A stretch of 64,000 bases of DNA from Apiotrichum sp. Y4204 (lineage: Eukaryota > Basidiomycota > Tremellomycetes > Trichosporonales > Trichosporonaceae): positions 1 through 64,000 of the forward strand of contig JAMYHL010000102.1 in NCBI GenBank assembly GCA_025531455.1. The letters run 5' to 3'. Position numbers and translations under genes: made by a program. Below are positions 1,384 to 53,169 of the stretch, in pieces; positions within the stretch are counted from its first letter, which is position 1, and each line of letters opens with the position of its first letter. Under the pieces are notes generated by a model that saw nothing but the letters and a program-made list of their open reading frames with translations, was not told the DNA's origin and searched no databases.

Positions 1384-2335
1384 CTACTTGGTCTTGCGCC
1401 AGCAAGTGCGGTCCTCAGGGACCTTCCAGAGGTCGGTCTGGGCACCGTCCTGGAAGCCGTAGTCAGTGTTGTAGTACGGAGGGTCGTTTCCGTTGTCCTG
1501 GAAGTTGTTGTTGCCCTCGCGCTGAGACCAGTAGTGCGGCTGCTTGGCGCCGACTGTACAGTTTGACTTGTCCTGGGGACACCTGTTGGCCACGCGCGGG
1601 CGGGGGAGCGGCTTGCCGTTCGGGTCCGCGTTCGTGACCTTGCACTTGTAGCCGAGGAAGTACATCTCGTTCGGCTTGCCGCCCTTTGTGCCGTGGACCC
1701 AGCCCCACATGCAATGGCAGCCGCCGGGCGGACACTCGGGGAGGCCGGCGGGGATCTTGAACTCGGTGTATGTGTTCCACGGGGAGCTCTGGTTGGTTGA
1801 GATGATGACAAAGTCCTCGGGCTTGATTTTCTTGACATCGCTCTCGTAGACGATGCCGATGGCAGTACCCTTGACATCCTTGACCTGGTTAAGAGGGGTG
1901 TTCCAGTTGTCGGAGGAGTGGAGCGCACCAGACTGGTTGGGGTCCTGGGGATTCGGAGTGCAGCCACGCTCGGGGACGGTGTGGTTGGGGCCATGGACTC
2001 CATAGGTCGTGTGGACGCGATGGCAGGCGATCTGGCCCATGTAGGTGCCACCAGCGGGCAGCTCCATGAAGGCACCCTCGGGCGGAGGCTCGTTGATGTA
2101 ACCGTGAAACCACCAGTCTTTGAAGGACAGATCACTGAGAGGGTTGACACCCTTGTTGGTGTTGGCACCCTCGCCTTCCCAGCTGTATTTGTCAATGATT
2201 GTTCTGGATAGCAATGCCCGCCATGAGTACTCACCCGTACATGGATCGGTCGTAGAGCGCCATGTGTGCTAGGGCGGGAGTGGCCGCGAGAAGCGTGAGG
2301 AGCCCAAACATCTTGGGCGAAGTGGATGATGACAT
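1384..2335 (-). CDS. AA14-family lytic polysaccharide monooxygenase, secreted
   Basis: This is a secreted copper enzyme expected to cleave polysaccharide chains oxidatively; AA14 enzymes were described as acting on xylan coating cellulose. Two exons are joined across a 52-nt intron (2183-2234, GTGAGT..ACAG), which restores SMYG-W-EGEG. A shorter splice of 31 nt is possible but fits the family less well. Start 2335 gives a 23-residue signal peptide ending ATPALA, so mature protein begins with His (HMALYDRSMYG), the N-terminal ligand of the copper histidine brace. Other family traits are WWFHGYINEPPPEGAF, ELPAGG, ACHR, PEDFVIISTNQSSPWN, and the Cys-rich PECPPGGCHCMWGW followed by YKCKVTNA. An in-frame Met at 2311 would leave a very short signal peptide. 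The length, about 290 residues, is normal. A TATA-like box lies about 140 bp upstream. The substrate is inferred from the family. Confidence 0.85.
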
Positions 2336-10712: not shown

Positions 10713-11288
10713 TCATTCGTCGACGTATTGTTCCTCATCGTCCTCATCGTCGTATGTGTCGACTTCGAGGTCGGTATCTGTATCTACGAGTTCAATCTCC
10801 TTATCCGCTTCCTCCACGAGCTCATGGTTGGCGATACACTGTCCCTTCTTTGCCGTCCACCCCTCCTCGCACTCGCGAATGACGCATCTGCCCTCTACGC
10901 ACTGTACGTCGACGGCGTTCTCGATCTGGGTGCAGTCCATGCCGATTTCCTCGAGCGAAAGCACGGGAGCCTCTTGGATGCGGAGGTCGCGCGCGCTTCC
11001 GACAATCATGTTGGTTTGACGTCCGCTCGCCGCGCGCCCGACGATGCACCCGCCACACGACTCGAGGTCGTTCATAATGTCCACGCACAGGTGCCGCCCG
11101 AGCCACGACCACTTGGTCGTCAGCGCGTCGCCGACGTACTCGTACACCGGGCACGCGGTCAGGCCGAAGGCGCACGGCCGCGCCGGACGGTGGAGCGCAC
11201 GCGGGCACACATGGGGCCCGTCATTGTGGGCTGATGCGAACGGAGTGAGGAGGGTCGCCAGAACGACGGTGAGAAAGGCGAACTGCAT
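10713..11288 (-). CDS. secreted cysteine-rich protein with CPL1/PriA-like domain
   Basis: The 191-residue product starts with a signal peptide (MQFAFLTVVLATLLTPFASA). The mature part carries the basidiomycete PriA/CPL1-like cysteine pattern: HVCPRALHR, AFGLTACPVYEYVG, LCVDIMNDLESCGGC, GMDCTQIENAVDVQCVEG, RCVIRECEEGW and KKGQC. The stretch NDLESCGGC followed by DCT...VQC..G.C is the signature. In Cryptococcus neoformans the Cpl1 protein is secreted and affects capsule and host macrophage signalling; whether this homologue has any such role is unknown. The C-terminus is an unusual acidic tail (VDTDTDLEVDTYDDEDDEEQ). The start at 11288 was chosen because it begins the signal peptide; the upstream open frame to 11447 probably reflects a spliced leader. 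Confidence 0.82.
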   Translation of the reverse strand: MQFAFLTVVLATLLTPFASAHNDGPHVCPRALHRPARPCAFGLTACPVYEYVGDALTTKWSWLGRHLCVDIMNDLESCGGCIVGRAASGRQTNMIVGSARDLRIQEAPVLSLEEIGMDCTQIENAVDVQCVEGRCVIRECEEGWTAKKGQCIANHELVEEADKEIELVDTDTDLEVDTYDDEDDEEQYVDE

Positions 11289-12317: not shown

Positions 12318-13775
12318 TCACCTGTCAACCTCATCGAGACCAGCCACCCTCTCTCGTTCGTCGAGTTCGCGCTCACGGTCGGCCAAATGCTGGAACCAGA
12401 TATTAACCACCCATTGCCTCCTCTGGAGCAGCTCCCGCTGGGTTTCTGTGGCTTTCATGACATCGGCGAGGGCGTAGAGCGCATTCGATAGGCCCGAAAG
12501 CTGGCGCTTGACTTCGCGCTCAATCGTGCGCTCAGCCATTGCCGTGATCCGGTCCCGGACGAAAACAGACAGATATCCGACACTGGGGTTCCTCATCGGG
12601 CCGCCCCAGCGGAGCTGGTGCTCGACGTCTGCAAGCGCGACACGTACGTGCTGCTCGGTGCGGCGTTTGACTTGAAGTCTCAGGTTGTTGCGGTCCGTCG
12701 TGAGGTGGCGCTGGACTTCCTTCAGCTCTTTCTCCCGCTGCAGAACCTTGAACTCCAGCTTGCGGACGTCCTGTTCCATCTCCTGAACCTTGAGTTCCTG
12801 CTCGCGGACACGCTGTTCCTTGCGCTGAACCTCGAGCTCCCGGAGGCGGACCTGCTGCTCCCTCAGGCTGAGCTCTGCTTCGGTAGGGTAAAAGCGAAAT
12901 ACGTTTGAGGCGGGAGCGGAAGTCGGATTAACCATGACCTCAGGGACGTCGAAGCCCTCCATAACTGGAGAAGGAGGGTTGGCAGACTCGGCGATCACTG
13001 ATGGCGTAGGCAGGGGCGTCGAAATCGGGGACAGGGACGTGTCCGCAGTGGCCCCCGCGTCGAGGTTGGGGGCAGAAGTGGCCGGATACCGAAACGCGCG
13101 GTTGCGGCTGCGCTCGCGGATATCGGCAAGCGCAGTAAGAGCGGTGACACCGTTATACGGATGAGGAACGCCAGCCAGGTCCCACACGTCGTAGTTGGGG
13201 CTCAAGTACGAGGTGCTCAGGACATCACGATAGACGCTTGTGGGAACGTCGTCATACGAGATGTCGTTTGCTGTTAGGGAAAGGTACAGACGAAGAGCCA
13301 TCGGCTGCAGGTCCCTGGCCTGCAGGTTCCAGCAGTGCTCATTCCACACGTCCCGCATGTGCTCGTATACGACTTGAACAAACAAGGCCCAGGGGCTGTT
13401 TGGGTCGTCCGGTATGCCGTAGCGCTGATCGGCGGAAACGCGGGAGAGGGCAATAAATGCCTGCGCAATCAGAGGGGGGAGAGCACAGGTGATGGGGATG
13501 CCGTCCTTGATCATCGCGTCGGGCAGGAGCATGTCGAGCAGATCCATGGCGTCGGGGGGCGAATTGTCGATTGCCTCCGAAAGGAGCGGTTCAAGGAGAG
13601 GCACCAAGTTCCTCTCAGGGCTTGCAGCCGGAGCTGCGGGCGAAGAAAAATATTCGAGGAACGAAATGGCAATGACGGCGATAAGGACAATAGGGAACAG
13701 CAGGGGCATGACGACGGTGGCCAGGAAAACAAGAAGTGGCGCGAGAAGCACGAGCGTCACGACGCGCGACGACAT
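12318..13775 (-). CDS. tandem-array coiled-coil family member 1, membrane-anchored variant
   Basis: This intronless gene encodes 485 residues and is the most downstream member of a seven-gene minus-strand array. Residues about 6-42 are strongly hydrophobic (VVTLVLLAPLLVFLATVVM and then FPIVLIAVIAISFL), enough for a signal-anchor or a membrane hairpin; no other member has this. The shared domain follows: GIPITCALPPLIAQAFIAL, QRYGIPDDPNSPWALFVQVV, and VWDLAGVPHP, matching the family pattern of a TRY-like block, then PW..LV.I, then a W-containing block. Residues about 300-460 form long charged helices rich in Arg, Glu and Gln (REQQVRLRELEVQRKEQR), typical of a coiled coil. No enzyme motif is seen. 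Start 13775 follows a pyrimidine-rich leader; the frame remains open to 14006 but without family similarity. The function is unknown. Confidence 0.72.
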   Translation of the reverse strand: MSSRVVTLVLLAPLLVFLATVVMPLLFPIVLIAVIAISFLEYFSSPAAPAASPERNLVPLLEPLLSEAIDNSPPDAMDLLDMLLPDAMIKDGIPITCALPPLIAQAFIALSRVSADQRYGIPDDPNSPWALFVQVVYEHMRDVWNEHCWNLQARDLQPMALRLYLSLTANDISYDDVPTSVYRDVLSTSYLSPNYDVWDLAGVPHPYNGVTALTALADIRERSRNRAFRYPATSAPNLDAGATADTSLSPISTPLPTPSVIAESANPPSPVMEGFDVPEVMVNPTSAPASNVFRFYPTEAELSLREQQVRLRELEVQRKEQRVREQELKVQEMEQDVRKLEFKVLQREKELKEVQRHLTTDRNNLRLQVKRRTEQHVRVALADVEHQLRWGGPMRNPSVGYLSVFVRDRITAMAERTIEREVKRQLSGLSNALYALADVMKATETQRELLQRRQWVVNIWFQHLADRERELDERERVAGLDEVDR

Positions 13776-14765
13776 GATGAAGGAGGTGGGGATGCGAGTA
13801 CGGTGAGTGACCAGATTTGGTGCGGAAGACAAGGATACGGAGAAGAGAGAGGTAGTGATAGTGAAGAAGGATGAAGGGAGGGATATGGAGAGAAGAGAAG
13901 AGTGAGGAGCAAACATCATGTTGGGAGACCCACAACGCGAATAGCATGGCCGTCGAGGACAGATACCAACGGGCGCCCAGGATTCCATATGGCGAGACTG
14001 CCACACACAGACACAAGCTGGAGAGGAGACATGCTTGTGTATGTTTACTCCCTCAACCCCTCATGTGTATGTTTGCGCGCTCTCGCCTCGTGCTGTCCCC
14101 TCGGGGTGGCAGGCTGTCAAAGGTACTGCACCCGCGTTGGTCGCGCGTGATGCCCTCCCGCCCTGGTGATTGATGATTGCAACAGCTCTGATGGCAATGA
14201 CAGAGAATGTGATGCTGGGACCATCTCCTACAGTACCTCTTTTTGTTGAGAACGGTGCACTGGCTTCATTACTGTTGCGCTGAAGTCGCGCGTCTCAGAG
14301 GCAGAAGTCCGGGGGTGGACCTCGAGAGTGGAGGCGGACCAACAATACGTCACAAGACCGTACTGTATATCCTGGCTGGGAGCTTTATCCCGCCAGTGGT
14401 GTTTTCCGAAGTATCTGTTACCCAACCACCGTATCTTCATTACCTTTACAAATATTCCAAGTCTCGACGGCGAAGAACCTCAGACCTGAAATATTTGGCT
14501 TTCCCTGTTCGGAATCACGAGACCTCAACTGCAGCGTTTGCCTTCGACTGGGCCCATGACGCGTGATGAGGGGACGCTCAGGAGATCAGGAGAAAACGCT
14601 CGGATCTCCAAACACAGCAAAACAAAACCTGGGGGTAGCACCACGGTCCCACGAGGATACATACATGAGAGGGGACTTCTTGGTGTCAGTGGGAAATTTA
14701 CTCGTCTCTCTCGCCTTTACTAAATCTCTAATTTATCTTGAAAGCGTTCTACAGCCACGCTTTTC
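13776..14765. other. intergenic in the paralogue array
   Basis: This gap holds the pyrimidine-rich leader of the gene ending at 13775 and about 700 bp without a supported gene. It is the second-longest gap inside the array. Confidence 0.45.
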
Positions 14766-16304
14766 TCAGTCACTGTCGTCGGGGACGGTCGACTCTAGCG
14801 TCCGAACACGTTGAATCAGCTTCTTCTCCCTCTCATTCATCTTAAGGCGCTCCTCGTTCAGCTGGCGGCGCCCTTGGAGAGACTTGAGCTCGGCTTGCAA
14901 GTGTTCCTTCTCGGCTTCTAACAGCTTCTTCTCGTACTCGTTGCCGAGGAGCGCGTCCCGCACATCGATTTCCGCCTCGAGCCTGCGTTTGATGACAGCA
15001 ACGGCGGAAGCATCAATGCGCGACAGTTTTCGCCACGGGTCGTCGTCGAATTCGGCCTCGGTAGTCTCGCTCCTTGTGCGCTTAACGGACAGTCGATCCG
15101 GCTCGTCAGGGTCACCCAAGGATCGGTCCGAGACCGCATCGGATTGGGCAACTTCGAAGGTGAGAGAGTCGATGTCCAGACAATCTGTTTCGGTGGCTGC
15201 AGGTGATTCTTGCGATGATGTGGGGGATTTCTCGATGACGATTTCTTGAATGGCACCGGCATTCGGGATTGAGGAGGGCGGGGTACATGACCTGTCGATT
15301 GCTTGCTCGTCGTTCTCTTGACTAGCATCGCTGTTGGCAATCGCGTGGGGAGGGGCACTCGGGGAACATGATCCGTCGATCACTCCGATGTCGCTCTCTT
15401 GTGCGGAATTGATGTTGAGCAATCTCTGGCGAGAGGAACACGGGGTGCATGGCTGGGTAATTTCTGGATTGTCGCTCCCTTGAACGGCATCGATGTTGGC
15501 GATTGTCTGTAGAGAGGGACACGGGGTGCATAACCCGCCGATTACTGGGATGTCGCTTTTTTGGGCAGAATCCCTGTCGACGATTGCTTGGGGAGAGGGT
15601 TCCGGGGTACATGAACCGGCGATCACTTGAATAGAGCTCTCTTGAATGGCATCGATATTGGTGATTGTCTGGCCAGAGGAGTAACCGCTAGTCTCAGGCG
15701 GAGGAGGGGCAATTGTTATTTGTGACGAGGAAGGAGTCATTGCCGTCTGTGTTGGGGAAGAGGACGTTTGTGACAGGGCTGTAGTCGACTGGATGGTGAT
15801 CGGGCCAGTCTGAGAAGTGGATTTGGGAGTGGGAGTCGGGGAAGACCGTGAAACTTCCATCACAGATCGCAGATGCGTTTCCAGCCACTTTTCCGGTCCC
15901 CCAGCTGGCTTCCAGGTGAGACACCTTTGAGCTTGGTCGAGGTAGTCCCCCTCGCTACCCAAAATGGCCCCAAAGTCTTCTCTGCTGAAAAGAGAAGACA
16001 AGTGGTCAAACTTGGACTCGGACAGGACAAACTGCAAAGCGGCGTACTCGGCCCACTCGTGTAAGTCTGCAGTGGGGACGACCAAGAGCGGCGCGGCACA
16101 GCGGAATTTCTCCACGATAATCATAACGAGCGTCGTCCATGGATACCCTGGTTGGAGACCAGGACTGTAACGGGTTTCTCTGGGGCAGAGAATGAAGGAA
16201 ATGACGGAGTTTTTAAGGTCGGGAGGTAATAAACGGGCCTCAGACTTGAACCCGGGAGCGACGAGATTGACCAAGCAAATGATCTTGGGATCGGAAAGCA
16301 ACAT
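14766..16304 (-). CDS. tandem-array coiled-coil family member 2, with 27-residue repeats
   Basis: This intronless gene encodes 512 residues. The N-terminal family domain reads VNLVAPGFKSEARLLPPDLK, then SFILCPRETRYSPGLQPG, YPWTTLVMIIVEKF and WAEYAALQFVLS, with the W-block KPAGGPEKWLETHL. A Ser/Thr/Pro-rich linker leads to five tandem 27-residue repeats (encoded at 15264-15668) built on NIDA.QESDI.VI.GSCTP. A charged coiled coil closes the protein (KKLLEAEKEHLQAELKSLQG, then NEREKKLIQRVRTLE). There is no signal peptide from the chosen start, which begins the family similarity; the frame is open to 16493. It lies 169 bp downstream of the next member in the same direction. The function is unknown. 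Confidence 0.75.
   Translation of the reverse strand: MLLSDPKIICLVNLVAPGFKSEARLLPPDLKNSVISFILCPRETRYSPGLQPGYPWTTLVMIIVEKFRCAAPLLVVPTADLHEWAEYAALQFVLSESKFDHLSSLFSREDFGAILGSEGDYLDQAQRCLTWKPAGGPEKWLETHLRSVMEVSRSSPTPTPKSTSQTGPITIQSTTALSQTSSSPTQTAMTPSSSQITIAPPPPETSGYSSGQTITNIDAIQESSIQVIAGSCTPEPSPQAIVDRDSAQKSDIPVIGGLCTPCPSLQTIANIDAVQGSDNPEITQPCTPCSSRQRLLNINSAQESDIGVIDGSCSPSAPPHAIANSDASQENDEQAIDRSCTPPSSIPNAGAIQEIVIEKSPTSSQESPAATETDCLDIDSLTFEVAQSDAVSDRSLGDPDEPDRLSVKRTRSETTEAEFDDDPWRKLSRIDASAVAVIKRRLEAEIDVRDALLGNEYEKKLLEAEKEHLQAELKSLQGRRQLNEERLKMNEREKKLIQRVRTLESTVPDDSD
15264..15668 (-). repeat. five tandem 81-bp (27-aa) coding repeats
   Basis: Within array member 2, five in-frame copies of a 27-residue unit follow one another without gaps, and a sixth partial unit follows to about 15210. 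Each contains N.D/S.Q...I.VI....C[TS]P, so each unit contributes a cysteine. The copies differ at many positions, which indicates an old duplication. Confidence 0.85.
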
Positions 16305-16473
16305 TGTTGAGACGGTCCACGTTGTCTTGCGGCGGTCGGTCGTCTGGAACAATCGATAACAGGACGAAAGAAAAGAAGGGATGAGAGAAGGCAGCGAAGA
16401 GCTCCAGTGTGGAGGGTAAATGGTTGGTGGTGATAAGTGGAGAAGGAATGCACCTTCCTTGGCTCTTGCCACC

Positions 16474-17523
16474 TCAATCTTCACGCGCTTCACGCTGCAC
16501 CTCCATCCTTGGCCCCTCTAGATCACGTAGTGTCGCTTCCAGGTCCTCTCTCTCCTGCTGATTTCTCGTTAGCCGCTCAGTGATATCTCGAAGCATGAAA
16601 TTCAAGTGTCGGCACTCGACGTCGAGGGTCCTCCTCCTCTGCAAGGCTTCTTCATGGCGGTCGTCCTGCCTCCGATTTTGCTCGGTATTGACAACGCCGG
16701 GATTGTTACGTGGTAGGTTGGCAGACTCGATTTCGGCCTCTGGAGAGTCACTTTCCCGTTTTCTTTTCCTCTCCGGAGGGGGAGACGAGGAGGGTCGCGC
16801 AGGCTGCGTTGATGGCCCCGCCTCCTGGTTTTGGCTTATGGTCGAAGCAGACGTGCCCGCCTGAGGCTGGCTATCGGGCTCTTGTGTAGTCGAGGATGAT
16901 GGTTGCGAAACCGGCTCAGGAGCTGCTCCAGCAGCAGAAGGACCCGGAGCGGCGGCGGGTGGGATCGGCAACGTTCCAGAATTTTCCACAGCCTGCGGGG
17001 CACGCGGGGGAATAAAAGCTGATGGGGGAAAGGCCGGTGCTGTTTTCAACAAATCCAGGATGTTCCAAAGGCGGGCCTCGTTCCGGAGCTGCTCGATACT
17101 CCAAGCCTTCAAACCCCACTCAGCGAATTCAGGGGTAAGGTCTTGAGGGGCTTCGGCTCCGACAAACTCGTTGTAAACCGGTCGCTTCCAGGAGGGTTGG
17201 GGCAGATCCGGGGGGAGCGGGGGCCGACCACTTACGGCAAGCACGAGCTCGCAGGAAGCTCGCTCACCCCACTTTTCAAGTTCCTTCGTCGTATATTGTC
17301 CGCGATATCGCAATCTTGCATTGGTGAAGAGTTGGATAACGATTTTGACAAGCGCCGTCCATGGATACCCGTCCTCTAGGTAACGGCGATAGCGTGTGTG
17401 CTTGCTACACCAGAGGAACGAGACGATCGCCTCGCCTAAAGGCGTAGGTAGTCGCTTCGTGGCCTTGAAGTCGCCGGCTACGACGTTGAGAAAGTGCTGA
17501 TAATCATCTTGCTGAGACGACAT
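16474..17523 (-). CDS. tandem-array coiled-coil family member 3
   Basis: This intronless gene encodes 349 residues. The family domain covers residues 8-150: HFLNVVAGDFKATKRLPTPL, then AIVSFLWCSKHTRYRRYL, GYPWTALVKIVIQLF, WGERASCELVLAVSGRPPLP and EFAEWGLKAWSIEQL. A Pro/Ser/Gln-rich linker (residues about 185-265) carries a possible basic nuclear signal (PPERKRKRESD). The last 70 residues are a charged coiled coil (QRRRTLDVECRHLNFMLRD, ERLTRNQQEREDLEATLRD). There is no signal peptide, so an intracellular and perhaps nuclear product is inferred. The start is the first Met and coincides with the beginning of family similarity. The function is unknown. Confidence 0.75.
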   Translation of the reverse strand: MSSQQDDYQHFLNVVAGDFKATKRLPTPLGEAIVSFLWCSKHTRYRRYLEDGYPWTALVKIVIQLFTNARLRYRGQYTTKELEKWGERASCELVLAVSGRPPLPPDLPQPSWKRPVYNEFVGAEAPQDLTPEFAEWGLKAWSIEQLRNEARLWNILDLLKTAPAFPPSAFIPPRAPQAVENSGTLPIPPAAAPGPSAAGAAPEPVSQPSSSTTQEPDSQPQAGTSASTISQNQEAGPSTQPARPSSSPPPERKRKRESDSPEAEIESANLPRNNPGVVNTEQNRRQDDRHEEALQRRRTLDVECRHLNFMLRDITERLTRNQQEREDLEATLRDLEGPRMEVQREARED

Positions 17524-18444
17524 TCTATGGTGACTATCAGGGAGTGGAAGCCTCCGATAAAAGGTAGAGTGTAGAGTGAGTGGGTGATGAAGAAAAGGTC
17601 AATGGGGAGAGATCGTTTTTAGAGGAGATCACGGTGGAGGCACCAGGGTGAGGGTGCACGGTCACCATAAGGTTTTCGCATCTGACAGGTTTGATCTGAT
17701 CTCGGCGGACCTCAAGCATGGAACGTTATGGAATCTTTAACCAAGGGAACCTCCTGGCCTCCTGCGACCCGGCTTCGGTGTCGGGTGCGATTTGTGCGAT
17801 TTACAAGAGTTCTGTACTTTTTAGTTGTTCGCTCAACAAGGTGCTGATGTGTCCTGTGGGGTGCGTTTTTTGACAGGTCTGGAAAGTGATCGGCTTGGCG
17901 GTTTACAATACAAGACTGTACTGACCCAGTGACTGCAACGCGAGCAACTGGGCAGTGCTCCCCAACACCTGTGCACTTGTGACTGCACCTGACATCTGAG
18001 CCAGTGATGCAAGTGATTATGGCTTCCGTGACTGTGACTTCTTTGTGCACGTGAGGGCAAAAACACCAATGTGGCAGATTCCGAGTCAAAATGTGGCACT
18101 CATCTTTCACAGCTTTCACCATGCAGGGTGGGCTTGCAGCATCTGCTGCAGCATTGAGGACATGACTATGCCCATCATCAGTTGGAGTATACTTCAGCAT
18201 TTGTCTGACACGCATGGCTGTCACATCTTCCAACGACTATGTACAAAGGATCTGGGTTTCTCTTGTGGCCATCTTGGCTACGTACTGTATCTGGTGACTA
18301 CCGACTCTTACTCGTTGATTATGTGATTACTTTGGGTCGTATGGGAGTAACGTTTGCCTATCGGACGAGACATACGATGGGGCTGTGTGCAGGTGGCTCG
18401 AATCTTAGGCGCGGGCGACGACAACACTAGAATCTTCTTGACGC
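17524..18444. other. intergenic in the paralogue array
   Basis: A 173-codon open frame (17712-18233 minus) lies here but has none of the family blocks and no other recognisable domain. The plus strand shows scattered CAGTGACTGCA-like short repeats around 17925-18030. No gene is called. Confidence 0.4.
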
Positions 18445-19425
18445 TTACTCCTCCTCGCCCGCGAGCTCAGACTTGAAAGCCTTGATGCGATCCTTGAGCT
18501 CCTTCTCCTTCTCGAGGTGCATGACGCGCTGCTGGAAATTCTTGACTTCGGCGGTGAGGAGTTGCTGCTTGGCTTCCAGAAGACTCTCCTCAGCGTCAAG
18601 GAGTTTCTTTTCGTACGTGTGGCGGAGGAGATCGGTGGAGTCGACGCGGCGAAACTTGGATCGAGAAGCGTCCCCCTCGTCGCAATTGGGGTCCACATGT
18701 TTACGCTTCTTGGCATTCTTAGACGATTCGGGCTGGCGGTCCACAGCTTCCATGGGTGCAGAACTTATGGTGGAGGAGCTGCGCTCGGTCCGATTCGATG
18801 GTTGACATTTGTGAAGTTCAGAGCCTTGAGAGGCGGTGAAACGATAGGCGGCATTCGAGACGGTCGGCGAGCGTGTCAGGGCCAAAAGAGCGGTAGAGGC
18901 AGAAGTGCCAGGGGAAGAAGCCTTGTCCTTAAGGGACGATGAAAGGTCCTCAGCAGGTTCCGAGTTCTCCAGGAGCTGCCAAAAGTAGTCCAGGCAAAGT
19001 TTGGGGTCCCAACTCGTATTCCAGTATGGAGGGTAGAGCTTAGGAACGAGACGACGCACTGCATGTTCGTAGATAAGTGAGTCGATTTTGTGTCGCGTGT
19101 CGGTGGGGTCTGTGAGTGGAGGGAGCTTACAGACCGCCAGAATGAGGGTGCACATGGCCCACTGGACAGCAACATGGAAGTCGTCGACGAAGGGTGAATA
19201 AACAAGCTGATCAGGGTCATGCCCGGAGAGCTTCATCACAATGAGCCGCACAACAAACATTGGAGAGTGAGACTCTCCCGATGGAGCAGTAAATTCACTA
19301 TCAGGGGGACAGAGACAGTAGGCAACGACAGCGGTGTGGAGACCGAATGGAATTTTGTTGTCCTTCTCGAAATCGGGTGCCACGGCACGAAGCACAGTCT
19401 TGTGGTCGCTGAATGGATTGTCCAT
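18445..19425 (-). CDS. tandem-array coiled-coil family member 4
   Basis: This intronless gene encodes 326 residues. The family domain begins TVLRAVAPDFEKDNKIPFGL and continues AVVAYCLCPPDSEFTAPSGE, MFVVRLIVMKL and AVQWAMCTLILAVCKLPPL. The usual TRY and PWT residues are replaced here, so this copy is the most diverged within the array. A Lys/Arg-rich block with KNAKKRKHVDP is a likely nuclear signal. The C-terminus is a strong coiled coil (YEKKLLDAEESLLEAKQQL, then NFQQRVMHLEKEKELKDRI). The start at 19425 follows a long pyrimidine-rich leader, and the frame remains open to 19605 through that leader without similarity. The function is unknown. Confidence 0.75.
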   Translation of the reverse strand: MDNPFSDHKTVLRAVAPDFEKDNKIPFGLHTAVVAYCLCPPDSEFTAPSGESHSPMFVVRLIVMKLSGHDPDQLVYSPFVDDFHVAVQWAMCTLILAVCKLPPLTDPTDTRHKIDSLIYEHAVRRLVPKLYPPYWNTSWDPKLCLDYFWQLLENSEPAEDLSSSLKDKASSPGTSASTALLALTRSPTVSNAAYRFTASQGSELHKCQPSNRTERSSSTISSAPMEAVDRQPESSKNAKKRKHVDPNCDEGDASRSKFRRVDSTDLLRHTYEKKLLDAEESLLEAKQQLLTAEVKNFQQRVMHLEKEKELKDRIKAFKSELAGEEE

Positions 19426-19429
19426 TCTC

Positions 19430-19520
19430 GAAGCGTTGAGAGATGAGGAATTGAGAGAGACGATGAAAGAGAAGAAGAGAAGAAGAGAAAAAGAGAAGAA
19501 GAGAGAGAAGACAAGATGAA
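19430..19520 (-). promoter_or_regulatory. pyrimidine-rich leader of array member 4
   Basis: On the minus strand this is an almost pure C/T tract (TCTTCTTCTCTT-type) directly upstream of the start codon. Similar tracts precede most array members. Pyrimidine-rich stretches close to transcription starts are common in fungal promoters; a role here is inferred. Confidence 0.45.
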
Positions 19521-19788
19521 TGATTCTGCAATGGGGCTGTGTGTGTGTGTGTTTGTTTGATGAGTAGACTGGATGAGTGAGTGGCGGGCTCAGCTTACTT
19601 CTCATGCTGCTCAGAAGCCTCCACCGCTCACGGGTTTCCTAAGTATTATGCAGCGTGCGCCGTGCAAGGTACTTGTATGGATAGGCTGCAGGGCGTTGCA
19701 TAGCGTGCGCTACATGTCGCTATATATGCTCGTGCTTAGTTCCGAGCTGCTCTTGGCCCATATGTACTGCATGTATTGCAAGCTACAG

Positions 19789-21084
19789 TCACTGCTTCTG
19801 CAGTCTCGCTTCCAGCTCCTTGATGCGATCCGTGAGCTCCCTCTCCCTCTCGCGGAGTTTCATACGTAGCTCGGCTTTGTCGAACTCGGACTGCAGGCGC
19901 TGCTGTTCGGCCAGAGTAATCTTCTTCCTCGCTTCGACGAGTTTAGCCTCGAATTCACGGTGAATGTCGGACACGTCGACGGGGGGTTTCTTGGTCTGAT
20001 GGCTGTCGGAATTGCCGGGTTTAAGGACTTTGTACTTTGAAGGCTGCCATGAAGACTCTGGACCCACAAGCGGGCCCACAGGCGGGCGGCTGCTCTTAAA
20101 CGCGAATGAGTCTGAAACCCCGTTGCGCGGAGCTGGGGACGGGGAAGGGGGACTCGCACTTCGTAGGGCTTGAATGGGGGCGACGGGGGGAACTTCCGGG
20201 AGCTCTGGGATGATGTCGGTTTGGAGTTGCCACCCCGTGAAGAGTCGAGGTGTAACGACAAAACCAGTCGGGTCGCTAGAGAGACGCGATAAAACAACAG
20301 ACGGAGAGTTCCATGGGTCGGTCGCAAACGACAAGTAAAGGAGCAACGCGTATTCAGGATGAAGAGTCGTCGGGGCGCGGGGAGGCTGATAGTACACGAC
20401 GAGCTCCTCATCGGCTGAGGCCCCGATGATTTCATCAAAGCGCCAACTCGGAGGGACAAGGAGAGGCCGGCCGCATACTGCAAAGACGAAGGCGCACGCG
20501 ACGTGCTCCATCCTCTGCCAGTGTGTCTCCCAGGAAGGAGGGGCAGGGGGCGGATCGGGAGGGGAACTCTGGCGCGACTTCTCTGCGTCCAGGAAGACGT
20601 TCCAGATAATCAGCACCAGTTTGGTCCATGGGCGACTATGGGGGAGGCCGATGCGATAGCGAGTTTCCTTGGGACACTGGAGAAAATAGAAGACGGCCTT
20701 GTGCACGATGAGAGGGAATTCGTTGTGTTTTTCGAATCTCGGAGCGAGGGCACAGAGGATCTCCCACCACTCGCTGTAAAGGGGTTCGTGGTTCTTCGGC
20801 AGCGTCAGAGTATTTCGGGTGACGGTGACAGCTGTTTGTTTGGAGGCGCCTGTATTGTTGTTTGGCTGAGGTAGTTTGGGTGAAGCTTGTGTACGGATCG
20901 TCGCGTCCTTCAAGGAGTGGGTTGACGAGTCGCTCAAGGAGTCATTCGAGCAGCCGTCCGAGCAGCCCTTTGAGCAGTCGTTCGAGCAGTCGTCCGAGCA
21001 GTCGTCCGAGTAATCGTTTGAGGAGTCATTTGAGTCGTTCGAGCAGTTGATCGAGGTGTCGTTTGAAGGTCTTTCGAGAAGCAT
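19789..21084 (-). CDS. tandem-array coiled-coil family member 5, with Ser/Asn/Asp/Cys repeat N-terminus
   Basis: This intronless gene encodes 431 residues from the chosen start. It opens with a tract of about 45 residues built from S-N-D-C-S-D/N units. The family domain follows: EILCALAPRFEKHNEFPLI, VFYFLQCPKETRYRIGLP, RPWTKLVLIIWNVF and VACAFVFAVCGRPLLVPP. A Pro/Ser-rich linker precedes a basic stretch, and the C-terminus is a coiled coil (REFEAKLVEARKKITLAEQQ, then RERERELTDRIKELEARLQ). The frame is open upstream to 21273 and would add a hydrophobic segment (FWLFVGILLSLSWSFSVF), so a membrane-anchored longer form cannot be ruled out. The function is unknown. Confidence 0.73.
   Translation of the reverse strand: MLLERPSNDTSINCSNDSNDSSNDYSDDCSDDCSNDCSKGCSDGCSNDSLSDSSTHSLKDATIRTQASPKLPQPNNNTGASKQTAVTVTRNTLTLPKNHEPLYSEWWEILCALAPRFEKHNEFPLIVHKAVFYFLQCPKETRYRIGLPHSRPWTKLVLIIWNVFLDAEKSRQSSPPDPPPAPPSWETHWQRMEHVACAFVFAVCGRPLLVPPSWRFDEIIGASADEELVVYYQPPRAPTTLHPEYALLLYLSFATDPWNSPSVVLSRLSSDPTGFVVTPRLFTGWQLQTDIIPELPEVPPVAPIQALRSASPPSPSPAPRNGVSDSFAFKSSRPPVGPLVGPESSWQPSKYKVLKPGNSDSHQTKKPPVDVSDIHREFEAKLVEARKKITLAEQQRLQSEFDKAELRMKLRERERELTDRIKELEARLQKQ
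20920..21060 (-). repeat. 12/15-bp tandem repeat coding for S-N-D-C units
   Basis: Plus-strand units such as GAGCAGTCGTCC recur with small changes, encoding the Ser/Asn/Asp/Cys tract at the N-terminus of array member 5. Such a repeat is prone to length change by slippage. Confidence 0.75.
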
Positions 21085-21460
21085 TTTGAGGTGTCTGCAG
21101 TACAGAGTCGAGGAAGGCGTTTGAAGAAACTGTACAGTTGAGCAAGTGGTGGGGAAGGAAAAAATCATAAGGCGATAGGTAGAAGAAAAGACGCTGAAAG
21201 ACCAGGAGAGAGAAAGGAGAATGCCGACAAACAGCCAGAAACCAAAGTGTGTTTGCTTGTGTCGCCCATCCATCAGGCCATCAGGCCATCAACCGTCAGC
21301 GCTGAAGGCTTCCAGATTCATTTTTCCTGCTGTATTCCCGTACTTGTAGATCGGAATCCTCGCGCGTAGCGATATTGCATGCAGGGCATCTTTTGGTTAC
21401 AAGTATTTTGTACCAATGTGTGTAACAAGAACTGTATCGTCCGCTCCCATCAGCTACAAA

Positions 21461-22213
21461 CTATGCCGCGCCACCTTCGCCCTGCAACCTGTTCTCCAGC
21501 TCTTGAATTCGGTCCATGAGCTCCTTCTCGCGCTTCTCCTTCACAAGTTGCTCGACGCTCTCCAACTCGGAGCGAAGACGCTGCTGCTTCTTTTCGAGGG
21601 TTTCGTTCTCACGGCGGGCTTCCGTACGTGGCTGCTTGCGGCGACGGTTATCGGTGTTGTCATCGTCTCGTTCGCGCTTGACCCTAGAGGACGCGGTAGA
21701 AGTTGCTTCTTGTGACGCGGTAAGAGGGGCTTGAAGGTTTCCCGGAGGGGCCGACGACGACCCGGATGTATCGGGCTTGACGAGCCAGAGATACTTCTGC
21801 AGCCACTTCGCAGCGGTGCTGGGGCTCGTGGCGTCCATATTCCACGGTTGGTTCCTGGGCACCAGCTCGATGGCCGCCGAGTCGCCGAGAATCTTGCCGA
21901 AGCGCATCCTGTCCAGACGTGAGGGCGGGCGGTCGCACACGGAGAGAACGAGGGCAAAAGTGGCGTATTCGGCGCACTCGTGCAGCACGTCAGTGGGAAG
22001 TGGCTTGTGCTGATATGCGAGATAGTGCTCAGCGACGATCATGACGAGAGTCGTCCACGGGGTATCCGCTGGAAGGCCGGGTTGGTATCGAGTGTCCTTT
22101 GGACACTGGAGGAAGAAGACGATCGCCTTGGACAACGCGGGGGGAATAATCTTGTCTTTCTCGAACTGGGGAGCGACGGCCTTGACCATCTTCCACCATG
22201 TTTTCTTGAGCAT
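21461..22213 (-). CDS. tandem-array coiled-coil family member 6, shortest form
   Basis: This intronless gene encodes 250 residues and shows the family architecture in its simplest form. The domain reads MVKAVAPQFEKDKIIPPALS, then KAIVFFLQCPKDTRYQPGLP, TPWTTLVMIVAEHYL and CAEYATFALVLSVCDRPP, with a short acidic block (RFGKILGDSAAIELV) and the W-block NQPWNMDATSPSTAAKWLQ. A brief Ser/Ala linker is followed by a basic segment (NRRRKQPRTEARREN) and a coiled coil (ETLEKKQQRLRSELESVEQ, then KEKREKELMDRIQELENRLQ). There is no signal peptide. The start was chosen at the beginning of similarity; the frame is open to 22294. The function is unknown. Confidence 0.77.
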   Translation of the reverse strand: MLKKTWWKMVKAVAPQFEKDKIIPPALSKAIVFFLQCPKDTRYQPGLPADTPWTTLVMIVAEHYLAYQHKPLPTDVLHECAEYATFALVLSVCDRPPSRLDRMRFGKILGDSAAIELVPRNQPWNMDATSPSTAAKWLQKYLWLVKPDTSGSSSAPPGNLQAPLTASQEATSTASSRVKRERDDDNTDNRRRKQPRTEARRENETLEKKQQRLRSELESVEQLVKEKREKELMDRIQELENRLQGEGGAA

Positions 22214-22713
22214 TGTCGCGGTTATTGTGTTGTTGCGATGGACGGAGGAGTGGAGATGAGGTATGAATGAGAGACGAGAAATTACGGCAGACAAAAGACA
22301 GCGACGCGAGAACTAGAAAACTGGAAAGTGCCGATGTGCACGTATGTGTTTCTCGAGGGAGTCAGAAATCAGAGAATTGAAGGCGAAGTGAAGGAGAGGA
22401 AAGCAAAAGAGTGTCGTTGAAAGAATGCGAGACGAAAGGGTGGAAACGGGAGAATGAGATTCAATGATTGTTTGGACGAGACTGAGAGAAGCTGTCATAC
22501 AGTACACATGCACCTGCCTAGTCGGACAACGTCCAGGCAGGGTGGCAACTCGAGTGGAGCTCGTCGTCGAAAAGTCAACTGAGGAACAGGAGGTAATAGA
22601 GGTGATCCGACAGAAATGGTCTGGACGCGCCTAACTTTCTTTTGGGATTGCTTAGTGTGTTGCAGACAGACACTAGCCGGGCTTTTTTCGATCGGTGCGT
22701 CCCGATAAACAAA
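22214..22713. other. intergenic in the paralogue array
   Basis: The stretch contains the leader of member 6 and the 3' flank of member 7. No gene is supported. Confidence 0.45.
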
Positions 22714-23676
22714 TCATCCATCGAGGTCAGAACCATTCCTCCCGTCCTGCCCGTTCTTAAGCATACGCACCTTCTCCTCCAGCTCAGCCTTGTGCTCCAA
22801 CCACGCCCTCTCACGCTCGTTCATCTCCTTGGCGTGGCGCACGGCTTCTAGCTCCGTCTGAAGCTGCTTTTCGCGGACGACGAGAAGTTCCCTATCGTGC
22901 TTGTTCTGCATGTTCGCTTTGAGGCGCTCCATTTCAAAAGTAATGGATGGAAGGATCGAGCGGGACGGAGGGGACCGGGACGCAATACGGCGACGTTTGT
23001 GCCGATGGTTGTCGTGTCTATCAACGCTGGGAGCTACGCTGTGCATCGAGCCGGGAGGGGAAAGCGAGTCCTCTCCTTGGAGGTCTTGCCGGCTGAAAAA
23101 CTCTTCCCTCTCAGGAGCGAGAGAGGCTCCGAAAACGCCGTTCGCGCGTCCCCGGACGATCACCTGAGCATTGTCGGGATAGGCGAACGCGCCTGCTGGT
23201 GTATCCTTTATAAGATCCGCGAGGATACTCTCCAACGTGCCAGGTCCGCAGGGCATCGGACGCAGGCCCCACTTGGCGTACTGGGGCACGAGAGGCGCGA
23301 GGGGCGGAACGCCCGTCGTAGCCGGCTTGCGGGGGCCGAGGACGTGTTGGAGGGTGCGCGGGCCGCATTCCATCGGCGGGGGGATGGGATTGCCGCAGAT
23401 GCGGAGAAGGAGGGTGAAAGCCGCGCATTCTGCGCGCATGTCGAGGAGAAAGCCGAGTGGTGGCCCGCCCCCCTGGCGGTAGAGCTCCTTCAGGATGCGG
23501 ATCAGCGTCGTCCACTGCGTATCCCTCGGAAGGCCCGGGCGGTAGCGCGTCGTGGGATCACTCTGGAGGAAGGCGACGAGGGCCTTGCCGAGGATGTATG
23601 GGATGGAGTTTGAGTCCGGGGCGATCGTGGTGATAAAGGAGCCGGCTGAAAGGGCGGATGAAGATGGTGGTGGCAT
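22714..23676 (-). CDS. tandem-array coiled-coil family member 7a
   Basis: This intronless gene encodes 320 residues. The domain reads SFITTIAPDSNSIPYILGK, ALVAFLQSDPTTRYRPGLP, TQWTTLIRILKELY and AAFTLLLRICGNPIPPP, and the W-block is YAKWGLRPMPCGPGTLESIL. A basic stretch (HRHKRRRIASRSPPSR) is a likely nuclear signal. The coiled coil runs from NKHDRELLVVREKQLQTELE to ELEEKVRMLKNG. It is the closest relative of its upstream neighbour at 24063: the IPYILGK, RYRPGL and coiled-coil blocks (KQLQ.ELE.VR.A.EMN.RER.WL) are shared, so the pair looks like the most recent duplication in the array. The start is the Met after a pyrimidine-rich leader. The function is unknown. Confidence 0.77.
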   Translation of the reverse strand: MPPPSSSALSAGSFITTIAPDSNSIPYILGKALVAFLQSDPTTRYRPGLPRDTQWTTLIRILKELYRQGGGPPLGFLLDMRAECAAFTLLLRICGNPIPPPMECGPRTLQHVLGPRKPATTGVPPLAPLVPQYAKWGLRPMPCGPGTLESILADLIKDTPAGAFAYPDNAQVIVRGRANGVFGASLAPEREEFFSRQDLQGEDSLSPPGSMHSVAPSVDRHDNHRHKRRRIASRSPPSRSILPSITFEMERLKANMQNKHDRELLVVREKQLQTELEAVRHAKEMNERERAWLEHKAELEEKVRMLKNGQDGRNGSDLDG

Positions 23677-24062
23677 GGTCTGGCTCGGGTGTATGATTGT
23701 GAGGAGGGCGGAGAAGAAGAAGGAGTGACGATGTGGGAAGACAAGTAAACGAGTTACAGGCAAGCGAGGACATCTAGAGTGAGGAAAAGGACACACTGAT
23801 GGAGTGAGACAGCAGAAGATAGTGACGGAGTGAGAGGGCAACGAGTGATGAGTGATGAGACGAGACGTGCAAGGGTGTCATATTTTGATGATGGTTGATG
23901 ACTGTCGGGCGATCAGATATACCTCGTACCGTCACGTCAGTCCCGAGCGAATCACTCAAGATCACTCAATACCTAGAACGCGTTGTGCACGAGATACATC
24001 TCTTCTTGACTGTATGCTCATGGGATCAGTGTACTGTACTGTACATCACACCTAGCTCGGGG

Positions 24063-24995
24063 TCACTCGGCACGTGGCCGCTTCCTCAGGACCTCCACCA
24101 TCTCCTCCAGCTCCGCATTTCGCTTAAGCCACGTCCTCTCGCGCGCATTCATCTCCTGGGCGCGGCGCACGCCCTCGAGCTCGGATTGGAGCTGTTTCGC
24201 GCGGATGGCAAGGAGCGCCTCGTCGTGCGAGTTCTGCTCGCGTGCGATCGTGCGTTCGGCCTCGTATGAGCGAGATGGTCTACCGGCGTTTGCGGCCTGT
24301 CTGTCGGGTTCGGGAACGACTGGGTTGTACGCGCTGGGCGGCTGGATGCGTTCTTGGCCGCCACGGGAATCTCCCGACCGCACCACATCGGTGTCCGTGG
24401 GACGATACGGCGGGGGCGCAAGCGGAGGGCCGCCCGAAGGAGTAGCCGGGGCTGGGGCGTGGGAGTCGGGGCTGGCGGGCTCGGACTTGGGCTCGGGCTC
24501 GGGGCTGACGCCGCCTTCACGCTCAAAACGCATCCAGCCAGGGGCGTCCTCGGCGAGGTCTAGCAGAATCCGCTCGAGCGTCTCGTGGGAGTACGCCGCG
24601 GGGCGGAGGCCCCAAGTCTCGTTCTGCGGGCGGAGGTTACGCGCCGCCCCGCCGCCAATGACGAGTTCGTACGTTTCGGAATCGTACGTCGCCTGTGGGG
24701 GTGGGTGACCGCAGACGACGAGTGTGAGTGTGAATGCCGCTGCTTGGGCGCGGCGCGCGAGGCGGGAGATATCTGGCGGCGGGGGGGAAGTGAGGGCGTA
24801 AACGTGCTCGATGATGCGGACGAGGGCGGTCCATGGGGCTCCCGGGCGGAGACCGGGGCGATAGCGCGACGAAGGGTCGCATGCCAGGAAGGAGAGGAGG
24901 GACTTGCCGAGAATGTACGGCAGCTCGTTTGATTCCCAGGCTGGGGCGATGGTTGCGAGGAAGGTTGGGAGGGTGAGGAGGGGGTCGTCTGACAT
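24063..24995 (-). CDS. tandem-array coiled-coil family member 7b, first gene of the array
   Basis: This intronless gene encodes 310 residues. The domain reads TFLATIAPAWESNELPYILG, SLLSFLACDPSSRYRPGLRP, APWTALVRIIEHVY and AAAFTLTLVVCGHPPP, with the W-block NETWGLRPAAYSHETLERIL. A Pro/Ser/Glu-rich linker (PEPEPKSEPASPDSHAPAP) precedes the C-terminal coiled coil (NSHDEALLAIRAKQLQSELE, then NAELEEMVEVLRKRP). There is no signal peptide. It is the most upstream of the seven co-oriented genes; the next minus-strand gene upstream is an unrelated phosphatase regulator. The start follows a C/T-rich leader, and the frame remains open to 25184 without similarity. The function is unknown. Confidence 0.77.
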   Translation of the reverse strand: MSDDPLLTLPTFLATIAPAWESNELPYILGKSLLSFLACDPSSRYRPGLRPGAPWTALVRIIEHVYALTSPPPPDISRLARRAQAAAFTLTLVVCGHPPPQATYDSETYELVIGGGAARNLRPQNETWGLRPAAYSHETLERILLDLAEDAPGWMRFEREGGVSPEPEPKSEPASPDSHAPAPATPSGGPPLAPPPYRPTDTDVVRSGDSRGGQERIQPPSAYNPVVPEPDRQAANAGRPSRSYEAERTIAREQNSHDEALLAIRAKQLQSELEGVRRAQEMNARERTWLKRNAELEEMVEVLRKRPRAE

Positions 24996-37541: not shown

Positions 37542-40500
37542 GCGGTGAGGTGGGAAGTGTGTGCGGGGGAAGGCGGAGTGATGCGGTGGATGGGCCGAGG
37601 CTCCGAGCCGGGGTTAATGACAATGACAAGCAGCTGTTTAAGAGAGCTCTTTGGAGGTGTGTGTCGTTGTGTGGATGATGGCAGGCAGTGGATGAATGCA
37701 AATTCGGGGTCCAGTGGTGTGTCCGCCTGGTGGTCCCGCTTCCTGAGATGACCGGTATGTTTTTAATGCCGTCAAGGGGCTCGTTGGTTAGTCCGGGGTG
37801 GTGATGAGATGGAGGGGGGATGAGAGAAGATGTGTTGAGCGGGGTGTGCAAGATGGCGTTGGGGGTGGGGAGGATGGTGGTTGTGATGGTGGTGGTAATG
37901 ATGATGATGATGGTGATGATGTGGGAGGCGACGGTATGTGATGGTAGTCTGTGGTTTGTGGTTTGTGGTGGTTTGTGGAAAACAGGTGGCCAGATGGGGG
38001 TGGATGGGATATGGATGTGTGTGTGTAGCGGGCAGGCAGCGGGCAGCAAGAGGAGGAGGAGCACAAGGACAAGGCCGAGGGAGGGACGAGCTCGAGGACC
38101 GAAGAGGGGGACGGAGGAAGACGACCCGCTGATCAAAAAAGGTGTGTGCTAGTGTGGATCTAACAATCCCCTAGCGATTTTTGGCAGAGGGGATGGAGAA
38201 GAGGTGCATAGTGGGGTGGGGGAGGAGAGCGGCGCGTGGGCAAATGCCGAAGGTCGGTTGAACGGGGCACGGCCAGAGGAAAAGGGAGGAAAGGGCCAAC
38301 GATTTCGACAAGGGAAGCCGAGAGGGACGGAGCAAGGGGAGCAAGGGAGAAGGGAGCAGAGGGGAGGAACGAAAAAAGGGAAGAAGACGAGGGAGGGGAG
38401 TGGAGGGGAGAAAAGGTTTTTTTTTTTCGGCGGCACATCCAACACTCCTCACCTCTGTTGAAAACGAGGGACGGGGAGGAGCAGAAGGGAGAACACGGCC
38501 GAAAACTAATTATTAATATGACTGTGGATGGAGACTGGAAGCAACACTTTGCAGCAGCAGCAGCAGCAGCAAACAATGTTGGGAACAGGGTTTAGTTGCG
38601 GGCAAGAGAGAAGGGCCAAGACGTCCAAGATCCAAGACAAGACAGCAAAGAGAGGAGAGGTCAAAGGCGGACAGCGAGAGAGAGTATGCAGAGCGGAGAA
38701 GCGGGGAATGTAGAGGGAGCATCCAGGCACGTAGCAGCATGCAACCACAACTCTGTTTAGACTGCTCTCCGAACAGTACACCATCCATCGTCTACAGCTA
38801 TACAGCTTCATGTGGACTCTCCAGTACACGAATTCTATCTCTGGAATCGATACACGCTGCCTCATGCGCCCCAACCCCGCATCAACGATGATGTCGCCGC
38901 GGAGCGCGGAGTAATCGTGTGTCTCAGAGTCTTAATCATCGGGTCAAGTGGCGGCGCCTGATTTTTTCGATGCACGCATCCTAATCCCATCCTCCATGGC
39001 CCTGCCGTTCTCCCTACCGCCACATGAGCCACCTGCTCCGCCAGGGTGAGCCCTTGAGCGCGTGAGCGCGTGAGCGGCGACCGATGGGGATACCCAGTCT
39101 TCTTGTAGAGTCGCTCGACTGATTCACTCGATGGCGGTGTACTAAAACCTCCGCATGACGGAGGTTGTGTCACGGAGAGGGTGGGGAGGCGGCCGAGCAC
39201 GCCGGATGCACTGGAAGCTGTGCGGCGGGGACCACGGGCGGGCGGCGGGCGGCGGGACACGGGGTCGGGAGAGGAGCAGAGGTACCAGAGGTACCAGAGG
39301 CCAGAGGCCAGAGGCCAAAGGCCAAAGGATGTGGCGGCATTCTCATCCGGCACACCGATTCCGGGATTCCAGCACTAGCAGACAGCTAGCACGCCTCCCG
39401 CCCGACTATTATCGATCACTGGCAGTCGGAGGAACTACGGCGGTCTTGGCCTTGGCTATGAACTTGAGCTTTGGAGGCAGGCGGGCAGCGGCAGCATACA
39501 GCATACATCGTGCCGAGTGGCCGAGATATGCTCAGCGCTCAACGCTCAAAGCTCAGAGGACATGAATCATGGATGGGACGCGCCATCCTGAGCGGAGCCA
39601 GCACCGCGTTAAGGGGAGATGCTCATGTTAGGGATAAAAGGATAGGGATGCGGATGCGTGAAGCATGCAGCGTGCAGCGTGCTGCATAACTGCATGCTGT
39701 CGCGTCGGAGCAAAGATAGCGCGATAGCGCAGGCGGGCCGGCAGGCCGGCAGAACCCCCGGAGCGACCGATGCGCAGCCGAGGCGGCCGAGCACAGAAGC
39801 AGAAGCAGAACCAGAAGCAAGGATCGCACCTCACAATCTTGGCAGGTTCGCAGTACGCCGAAGCCGAGCCCACTCCCCTCCCATGCCGCCCGCCCCGTTG
39901 CCATCAAACAACCGCCGGCTGCAGCCGGCTGCCGGATGCCGAGTGCTTCTGAATGACGCAGTCGGTGCTGCACATGCATCACGCATCACGCATTATATAA
40001 ATATCAAACATTGCGGGAATCCAACTTCTATCAGGGGGGAGGGAATAGGCACCCGGTCTCAGCAGCGCAGGGACAGGCAGCGTCGGCTGTCTGTCTGCGC
40101 AGCACCCGGCGAGCGGGGGGTTGACGGGCAGCCGCGCTCGTCATCAGCGACAGTCCGCCAGCTCGGAGGCACGCGGTGACACGGGGCAAAATTCTCACCC
40201 TCTCATTTCTGGGGAGCCCGGAGCCCGGAGGTTGGACTCCGAGTCGGCGGTGCCTTACCCCCCCAATGTCATCGAGGACGCCGTGTCGGAGCCACCTTGC
40301 ACCTTGGCGTCTTGGGATCTTGGATGTGATCGGTCACGCATGCACGGATGCCACGGATACCGGGGATGTCTCAATTCTGGAGACAAAACACACCCGCCGT
40401 CAGTCAAAACACGACAGTAGTTGACAACAGCCAAAAAATATCCACAATAATCAATCGAGATCCTCCAAGCAAAGTATGCATACCCCCCTCTCCGCCCTTG

Positions 40501-52242: not shown

Positions 52243-53169
52243 ATGCCGCCGAAAAAATCCAAGTCCAAGGCGAAGAAGGGGGCCGCGCCGCCGCTACCGG
52301 ACGAAGCGCCGCCGCTGCCGAACGAACAGCCGCCGCTACCTGATGAGGCCCCGCCGCTACCCGATGAGCAGCCTCCACTCCCGAGCGATGCCGAGCAGCC
52401 GCCGTTGCCGAAGGAGCAGCCGCCGCTCCCGGATGAGGCGCCTCCGCTCCCCAAAGAGCCTGTTCCAGAGAAGGAGGGAGATGAAGCGAGCGGTGGCGAG
52501 GAAAAGGGAGACGAGAAGGACAAGGACAAGGAGGAGAAGGCGCCGGACCCCGCGGCATGGCAGGCTGTCTGGGCACCAGAGCAGAATGGTGAGTGTAGAT
52601 GGCAAAGCTTGGTTTCATCTGCGTATACTCACTGCAGCGTACTACTTCTGGAACAAGGACACGGGCGAAGTGACATGGACGAACCCGCTTGCGCCGCCGC
52701 TGCCCTCTGAGCCTGCGCCGGAGGCGGATGCCAATGCCGCCGCTGGACCGTCACGCGCGGTGCGGCCCGTCCCCTCCGCGATCCCCGACATTGACCCGGC
52801 ACTCGCGCACCTCCTCCCGCCCGAACAGCGTGGGGCCGACGGCGCGCCCCTCGCCGGACTCAAGTACGCTCCGCAGGACTACAACTACTCATTCACACAT
52901 CTCGACGAGTACAATCGCGCGAAACGGTTCTCGGAGCACTACTTCAACGTCGACGAGTGGGAGAAACAGAAGGCGGCCGAGTCGTACAAGCGCAAGGCGG
53001 AGGAGGAGGCGGGTATCGTGAGCAATAAGAAGATTACGAAGAAGGATATGGTGAGTGTCGATGACCGGGAGGGCGGACGTGTGTTTGATTGGTTGCTGAC
53101 TTTTAGGAACGCTTCCGGGCAAAGAAGGCCGAGCAGAAGGCGCGCAGACAGGCGTGGCTTTACGACTAG
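52243..53169 (+). CDS. WW-domain protein with PPLP repeats
   Basis: The product is 273 residues from three exons (52243-52588, 52638-53050, 53107-53169; introns 49 and 56 nt). The basic start (MPPKKSKSKAKKG) leads into a repetitive region of seven-residue units of the type APPLPDE/QPPLPKE (residues about 13-72), then an acidic Lys/Glu stretch. A WW domain follows: AAWQAVWAPEQNAYYFWNKD and TGEVTWTNPLAPPLP, with both tryptophans and the YYF core. The C-terminal part has DYNYSFTHLDEYNRAKRF and a basic helix (RFRAKKAEQKARRQAW). PPLP is the known ligand of group II WW domains, so the protein carries its own potential ligand. It is probably nuclear; many such proteins are splicing-associated, but that is inference. 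Confidence 0.83.

Follow-up and report, generated by a model that had tools for sequence, protein, structure and literature searches.

The first 64,000 nucleotides of a contig (C5; JAMYHL010000102.1, bases 1-64000) of the basidiomycete Apiotrichum sp. Y4204 were analyzed here and are referred to as the window; the genome assembly (GCA_025531455.1) comprises 48.9 Mb in 182 contigs. Between positions 12318 and 24995, the window holds eight single-exon open reading frames (ORFs) of one protein family, all on the minus strand and named g1 to g8, and a probable ninth member, g9, lies outside this array at 55833-57713 on the plus strand. A sequence-only reading of the region had described seven consecutive minus-strand genes; their consecutive arrangement on that strand was borne out and their number was not. 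The element common to the proteins is an N-terminal domain of ~140 residues (N-domain), after which come a linker of low complexity and a helical, charged tail. Gene starts are ATG codons chosen from the ORFs.

The genome looks hybrid or duplicated, with this region present twice. The window was colinear with positions 724001-774000 of contig C1 (C1:724001-774000) at ~88-90% DNA identity, and the 20 kb holding the array was 90.6% identical to its C1 counterpart; other weak side matches likewise fell in contig pairs (C132/C155, C106/C150, C35/C133, and C46/C109). Natural Trichosporon hybrids are described in the available parts of two publications (PMC6642101 and PMC12820176), the former also describing RNA-seq data from hybrid Trichosporon. 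On C1, g1 to g8 were found in the same order with all eight open, and all nine genes were open in both homeologs (18 of 18 copies), with 67 to 93% identity between homeologous proteins. Homeologs were compared by the Nei-Gojobori method, and this yielded ratios of nonsynonymous to synonymous divergence (dN/dS) from 0.15 to 0.65. Because the reading frames are open in both homeologs and the ratios fall in this range, g1 to g9 are maintained coding genes, and eight, probably nine, of them form one real, maintained family that is unclassified in the databases searched.

The members differ in what surrounds the N-domain. The remote member g1 (12318-13775; 485 residues; dN/dS of 0.31; homeolog open and ending at C1:727302) carries a hydrophobic N-terminus, the N-domain (13086-13553, placed by profile alignment), a linker, and a long coiled coil; its hydrophobic segment (residues about 5-44; 13644-13763) is a probable membrane anchor by Kyte-Doolittle hydropathy. 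In g2 (14766-16304; 512 residues; dN/dS of 0.61) the N-domain is followed by a long Ser/Thr/Pro-rich linker and a charged C-terminal helix, and in g3 (16474-17523; 349 residues; dN/dS of 0.42) by a linker with an RKRKR cluster and a coiled coil. The fastest-changing copy is g4 (18445-19425; 326 residues; dN/dS of 0.65), which shares 67% identity with its homeolog (C1:733344-734363), the most diverged pair of the family (the next lowest being g2 at 81%), and the C-termini of the two g4 proteins differ. The shared N-domain and the recurring motif blocks quoted in the sequence-only reading were present in the array genes, except that g4 has partly lost the conserved motif residues: in the corresponding alignment columns, R and W are missing from the window copy and W from the C1 copy. 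An N-terminal extension of ~100 residues rich in Ser, Asn, and Asp precedes the domain of g5 (19789-21084; 431 residues; dN/dS of 0.28). The shortest and most constrained copy is g6 (21461-22213; 250 residues; dN/dS of 0.15; N-domain at 21734-22213, taken for the AlphaFold2 model), and g7 (22714-23676; 320 residues; dN/dS of 0.28) resembles g8 (24063-24995; 310 residues; dN/dS of 0.37) over its full length. These array features are all on the minus strand. The probable remote member g9 (626 residues; dN/dS of 0.43; homeolog open at C1:771399-773339) lies 31 kb from the array in the opposite orientation with the same layout as the array genes, including a long charged helical tail; on the plus strand, its N-domain (56121-56618) is 94% identical to that of the homeolog, and an AT-hook-like motif, RGRGRPRKIPK (residues 91-101; 56103-56135), gave a sub-threshold score to PF02178.

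Family membership was evaluated by pairwise BLASTP, with expectation values (E) at a fixed database size of 1e7 residues, and by profile searches. Among g2 to g8, 16 of the 21 pairs reached E <= 1e-3, mostly across the N-domain, and g7-g8 was the closest pair (E of 2.3e-42, 36% identity over 323 columns); g2-g4, g2-g7, g3-g4, g4-g7, and g4-g8 remained above this threshold, and neither g1 nor g9 matched another member at E <= 1e-3. The all-against-all comparison thus upheld the proposed relatedness, with g1 as a remote member reached by profile only. A profile of g2 to g8, which contains these seven by construction, detected g1 with an E of 9e-4 and its homeolog with 4e-4 on a scale of 2133 six-frame segments, and with 8e-4 and 3e-4, respectively, when the six-frame set itself was searched. 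The same profile gave g9 an E of only 0.18 and its homeolog 0.47 as full proteins; in the search of the six-frame set the two had 0.71 and 2.5, as against 0.85 for the best of the shuffled segments. Adding g1 to the profile brought the values to 3e-5 and 8e-5. Six shuffle tests were run, and in every one 0 of 2000 shuffles (1472 to 1556 of which scored at all) attained the score of the cut-out domain; the g9 domain exceeded 2000 of 2000 shuffles whether g1 was in the profile or out of it. Profile-profile alignments spanned the whole domain and were singly weak (P of 0.0016 for g1, 0.01 for g9, and 0.04 for g1 versus g9), and the sole other genome-wide match of the g9 domain up to an E of 10 was the g8 homeolog on C1 (E of 0.0099). 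By these sequence comparisons, g1 can be regarded with confidence as a member of the family, and g9 is probably its ninth.

The N-domain is predicted, with fair confidence in the fold, to be compact and all-helical, as obtained when structure prediction was applied to it. The AlphaFold2 model of the g6 N-domain, built from an alignment of 13 sequences, had a predicted local distance difference test score (pLDDT) of 83.1 and a predicted template modeling score (pTM) of 0.82, with helices at residues 2-13, 17-20, 25-35, 52-67, 74-92, 102-109, and 131-145, and its residues 150-160 were below a pLDDT of 50. The model of the g9 N-domain (pLDDT of 74.1), whose alignment contained the family, agreed with it in the order of the main helices.

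Beyond the N-domain, the linkers are rich in Ser, Thr, and Pro, and the tails are charged helices poor in Pro and Gly. Heptad periodicity was scored in the window copies against 1000 shuffles, in the best window chosen beforehand, a procedure that favors a coiled coil. It was clear in g1 (1 per 1000 shuffles) and g3 (3 per 1000) and borderline in g9, g2, g4, and g5 (50, 63, 66, and 75 per 1000, respectively), and the tails of g6 to g8 did not exceed shuffles (123 to 228 per 1000). Accordingly, the C-terminal charged coiled coil ascribed to all copies was statistically clear only for g1 and g3, the others having charged helices of weaker periodicity. The N-terminus of g1 showed a maximum Kyte-Doolittle mean over 19 residues of 2.84 (2.78 in the C1 copy), the next gene having 1.78, and is probably membrane-spanning, a predicted anchor. 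For g9, the AT-hook model (PF02178) scored 14.2 bits on a 33-residue piece and 9.4 on the whole protein (cutoff of 17.4); RGRGRPRK, the AT-hook core, is unchanged in the homeolog. In most copies, basic clusters lie C-terminal to the N-domain, and they are conserved between homeologs.

The nine genes showed homeolog dN values from 0.034 to 0.207. Corresponding values for neighboring genes, among which CPL1-like and SAPS genes are unrelated to the family, as had been claimed, were 0.003 for SAPS, 0.021 for the CPL1-like gene flanking the array (10713-11288, minus strand; PF21671), 0.009 for a response regulator, 0.013 for a mucin-like ORF (with one stop in the homeolog frame), and 0.010 for an ADP-ribosylglycohydrolase-like gene (90 codons); an ORF of doubtful frame at 52343-53200 had a dN of 0.043 and a dN/dS of 0.49. 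The family is under purifying selection yet changes far faster than these neighbors. A gene-wide dN/dS above 1 was found in none of the nine genes, and the diversifying function suggested by the sequence-only reading was not supported as selection on whole genes. In 60-codon sliding windows, dN exceeded dS 15 times among the nine genes, mostly by small margins and without a significance test: 5 of 15 windows in g4, 4 of 24 in g2, 2 of 23 in g1, 2 of 30 in g9, 1 of 20 in g5, 1 of 14 in g8, and none in g3, g6, and g7. The largest excess (dN of 0.17 versus dS of 0.09) lay in the g5 extension.

In a midpoint-rooted tree of the domains, the homeologs of seven of the nine genes formed forks of their own, those of g6 and g8 stood side by side at unresolved forks, and g1 and g9 fell together outside the core (support of 95/97); the program issued a long-branch warning for other joins. 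The stems of the seven genes measured 1.01 to 2.57 changes per site, and the homeolog tips at most 0.27. Since the stems are far longer than the tips and all nine genes occur in both subgenomes, the duplications long predate the separation of the two parental lineages. We infer that the array arose from old tandem duplication followed by divergence and not from recent or ongoing gene birth.

Relatives were sought throughout this genome and in outside databases. Genome-wide protein searches used whole g8, g9, g6, and g1 and the domains of g9, g3, g7, and g1, so that g2, g4, and g5 were not among the queries, and introns were ignored. At E <= 1e-3, these searches with six of the nine genes found nothing beyond this locus, its homeolog, and broken, incomplete g1 domains, present in both subgenomes (C132:198855-199353 and C155:191250-191667). 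The local expansion suggested earlier was supported as to confinement in this genome, with the qualification that it is old. The broken copy on C132 contains a short threefold tandem repeat of MRDVWDEH, and an ORF beside the broken copies is a putative saccharopine reductase gene. Outside this genome, no Pfam score exceeded the curated cutoff for the eight array proteins, g9, or 18 domain sequences, and no significant match was obtained in NCBIfam, PHROGs, PDB sequences, PDB folds, or viral folds, in agreement with the earlier statement that no named domain with this pattern was known. A search of 5.8 billion proteins with g8 gave 7106 candidates, none with E <= 0.01, and a search with a 14-row family alignment, in which the 7995 candidates sharing most words were scored, gave none with E <= 1.

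These negative results bear on the explanation that we regard as somewhat probable, namely, that this is an older, ordinary fungal family that has changed too fast to be recognized in other genera. Such homology-detection failure concerns origin and is compatible with any scaffold function of the kind considered below; the general argument is made in the available part of PMC7660931. As a control, SAPS was searched against the same protein database, and its 86 matches showed that this database holds Cutaneotrichosporon and Vanrija proteins, none of the 86 being named Trichosporon; the ten best matches had 66 to 71% identity (Cutaneotrichosporon, 67 to 69%; Vanrija, 66%). These matches are consistent with the placement in Trichosporonales assumed by the sequence-only reading. 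Even SAPS, with its dN of 0.003, thus drops to this level, and at the rate of the array, whose dN is also above the 0.009 to 0.021 of the response regulator and CPL1-like genes, orthologs in these genera would by our estimate probably lie beyond a search based on 5-residue words. Against this explanation stands the finding that neither g8 nor the family alignment retrieved a relative at the respective thresholds. Because the family changes so fast, a true absence from other genera is indistinguishable from a failure of detection.

Three further explanations were weighed. The genes could be duplicates that are under loose constraint, mostly dispensable, and on their way to being lost, as the dN/dS values of g2 and g4, the eroded motif and unequal ends of the g4 homeologs, and the broken g1 copies elsewhere might suggest; we consider this unlikely, given that every copy is open and that g6 is tightly constrained. 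We hold it quite unlikely that the members recognize variable partners in an arms race, as a self/non-self or genomic-conflict system would (allorecognition, or a selfish element or its suppressor). Tandem arrangement, fast protein change, orphan status, and the especially diverged g4 and g2 linker fit such a system, as does the clustering of Neurospora lineage-specific genes with HET-domain genes described in the available part of PMC10684091. However, dN/dS is below 1 in every gene, copy number and order are identical in both subgenomes, and comparison of the family proteins with domain libraries revealed no HET, NLR, NTPase, or toxin domain. That the family derives from a protein of a transposon or retroelement, such as a capsid/Gag-like helical domain, which was domesticated and duplicated in tandem, seems highly improbable.

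As to function, we tentatively put forward one possible reading, that the family consists of intracellular scaffold or adaptor proteins whose helical domain would bind a partner and whose tail would self-associate, since the layout is that of a folded domain, a flexible linker, a charged tail, and an optional membrane or DNA tether. The domain may bind its protein partner via the conserved P/RY..GL/PWT loop and the hydrophobic VCG.P helix, the low-complexity linker could give reach, and the charged tail might drive homo- or hetero-association into mixed complexes of related copies. Two copies would be tethered, g1 to a membrane and g9 possibly to AT-rich DNA, and these tethers would suggest a function close to chromatin or to the nuclear envelope. 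Action on the nuclear or chromatin side is weakly favored; the AT-hook-like motif of g9 and the conserved basic clusters are weak hints of it. Several observations weigh against the scaffold reading and the family as drawn for it. With the g2 to g8 profile alone, g9 stayed below significance (E of 0.18 to 2.5), and a g9 profile gave more than 5 bits to g8 alone (15.6 and 8.1). Seven of the nine members show only weak heptad periodicity, and the AT-hook score of g9 is below the Pfam curated cutoff (PF02178, 17.4 bits). The basic clusters exceeded composition-preserving shuffles solely in g3 (p ~0.02), with g7 marginal (~0.06) and the other seven not, and searches of PDB and viral folds with the domain models gave no neighbor suggesting a function. 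It is a long shot that the N-domain is a new fold and the family a lineage-built nuclear scaffold, with membrane-anchored coiled-coil g1, DNA-tethered g9, and seven co-assembling soluble adaptors acting as a functional analogue of the lamina in a fungus. Fungi are not known to have lamins.

The family provides a well-delimited, testable set (eight to nine genes, two subgenomes, and a usable model) on which the databases that were searched are silent, and it is well suited to testing how true gene novelty can be told apart from homology-detection failure. Should the tethered copies indeed work at chromatin or the nuclear envelope, the family would represent a scaffold system particular to its lineage; if not, it is another fast-changing orphan array of a fungus.

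Elsewhere in the window, an ORF at 1384-2067 (minus strand) covers most of the lytic polysaccharide monooxygenase AA14 domain (PF22810, E of 3e-59), and one at 58977-60059 (minus strand) encodes a WSC domain (PF01822) and, after it, glycosyl hydrolase family 71 (PF03659). AT skew reached 0.25 at 38001-40000, the maximum when the window was divided into 32 steps of 2 kb.

Parts of the family can be set beside known systems. The JBP1 DNA-binding domain (PDB 2xse and 8bbm) aligned with the g6 model at E values of 1.3 and 2.2, a root mean square deviation of 4.9-5.5 Å, and noise-level Z scores, and it was absent from the match lists of the g9 model; such a likeness is not evidence of relationship. 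With AT-hook proteins (PF02178), g9 shares the RGRGRPRK core at a sub-threshold Pfam score, whereas among the other eight window proteins GRP occurs in g3 and g5 solely inside the CGRP/SGRP block of the domain and in g8 as AGRPSR in the linker, none of the three with a basic flank, and the remaining proteins lack it. Several copies resemble bZIP-like proteins in having a basic cluster ahead of a charged helical tail and differ from them in that none of the nine proteins matched Pfam bZIP and heptads are weak in most. Tandem arrays of lineage-specific (orphan) fungal genes are likewise clustered and fast-changing, with no relatives found; in contrast to these, the array described here has a fold predicted with fair confidence, and its copies are old, the two subgenomes having kept them in one-to-one correspondence.

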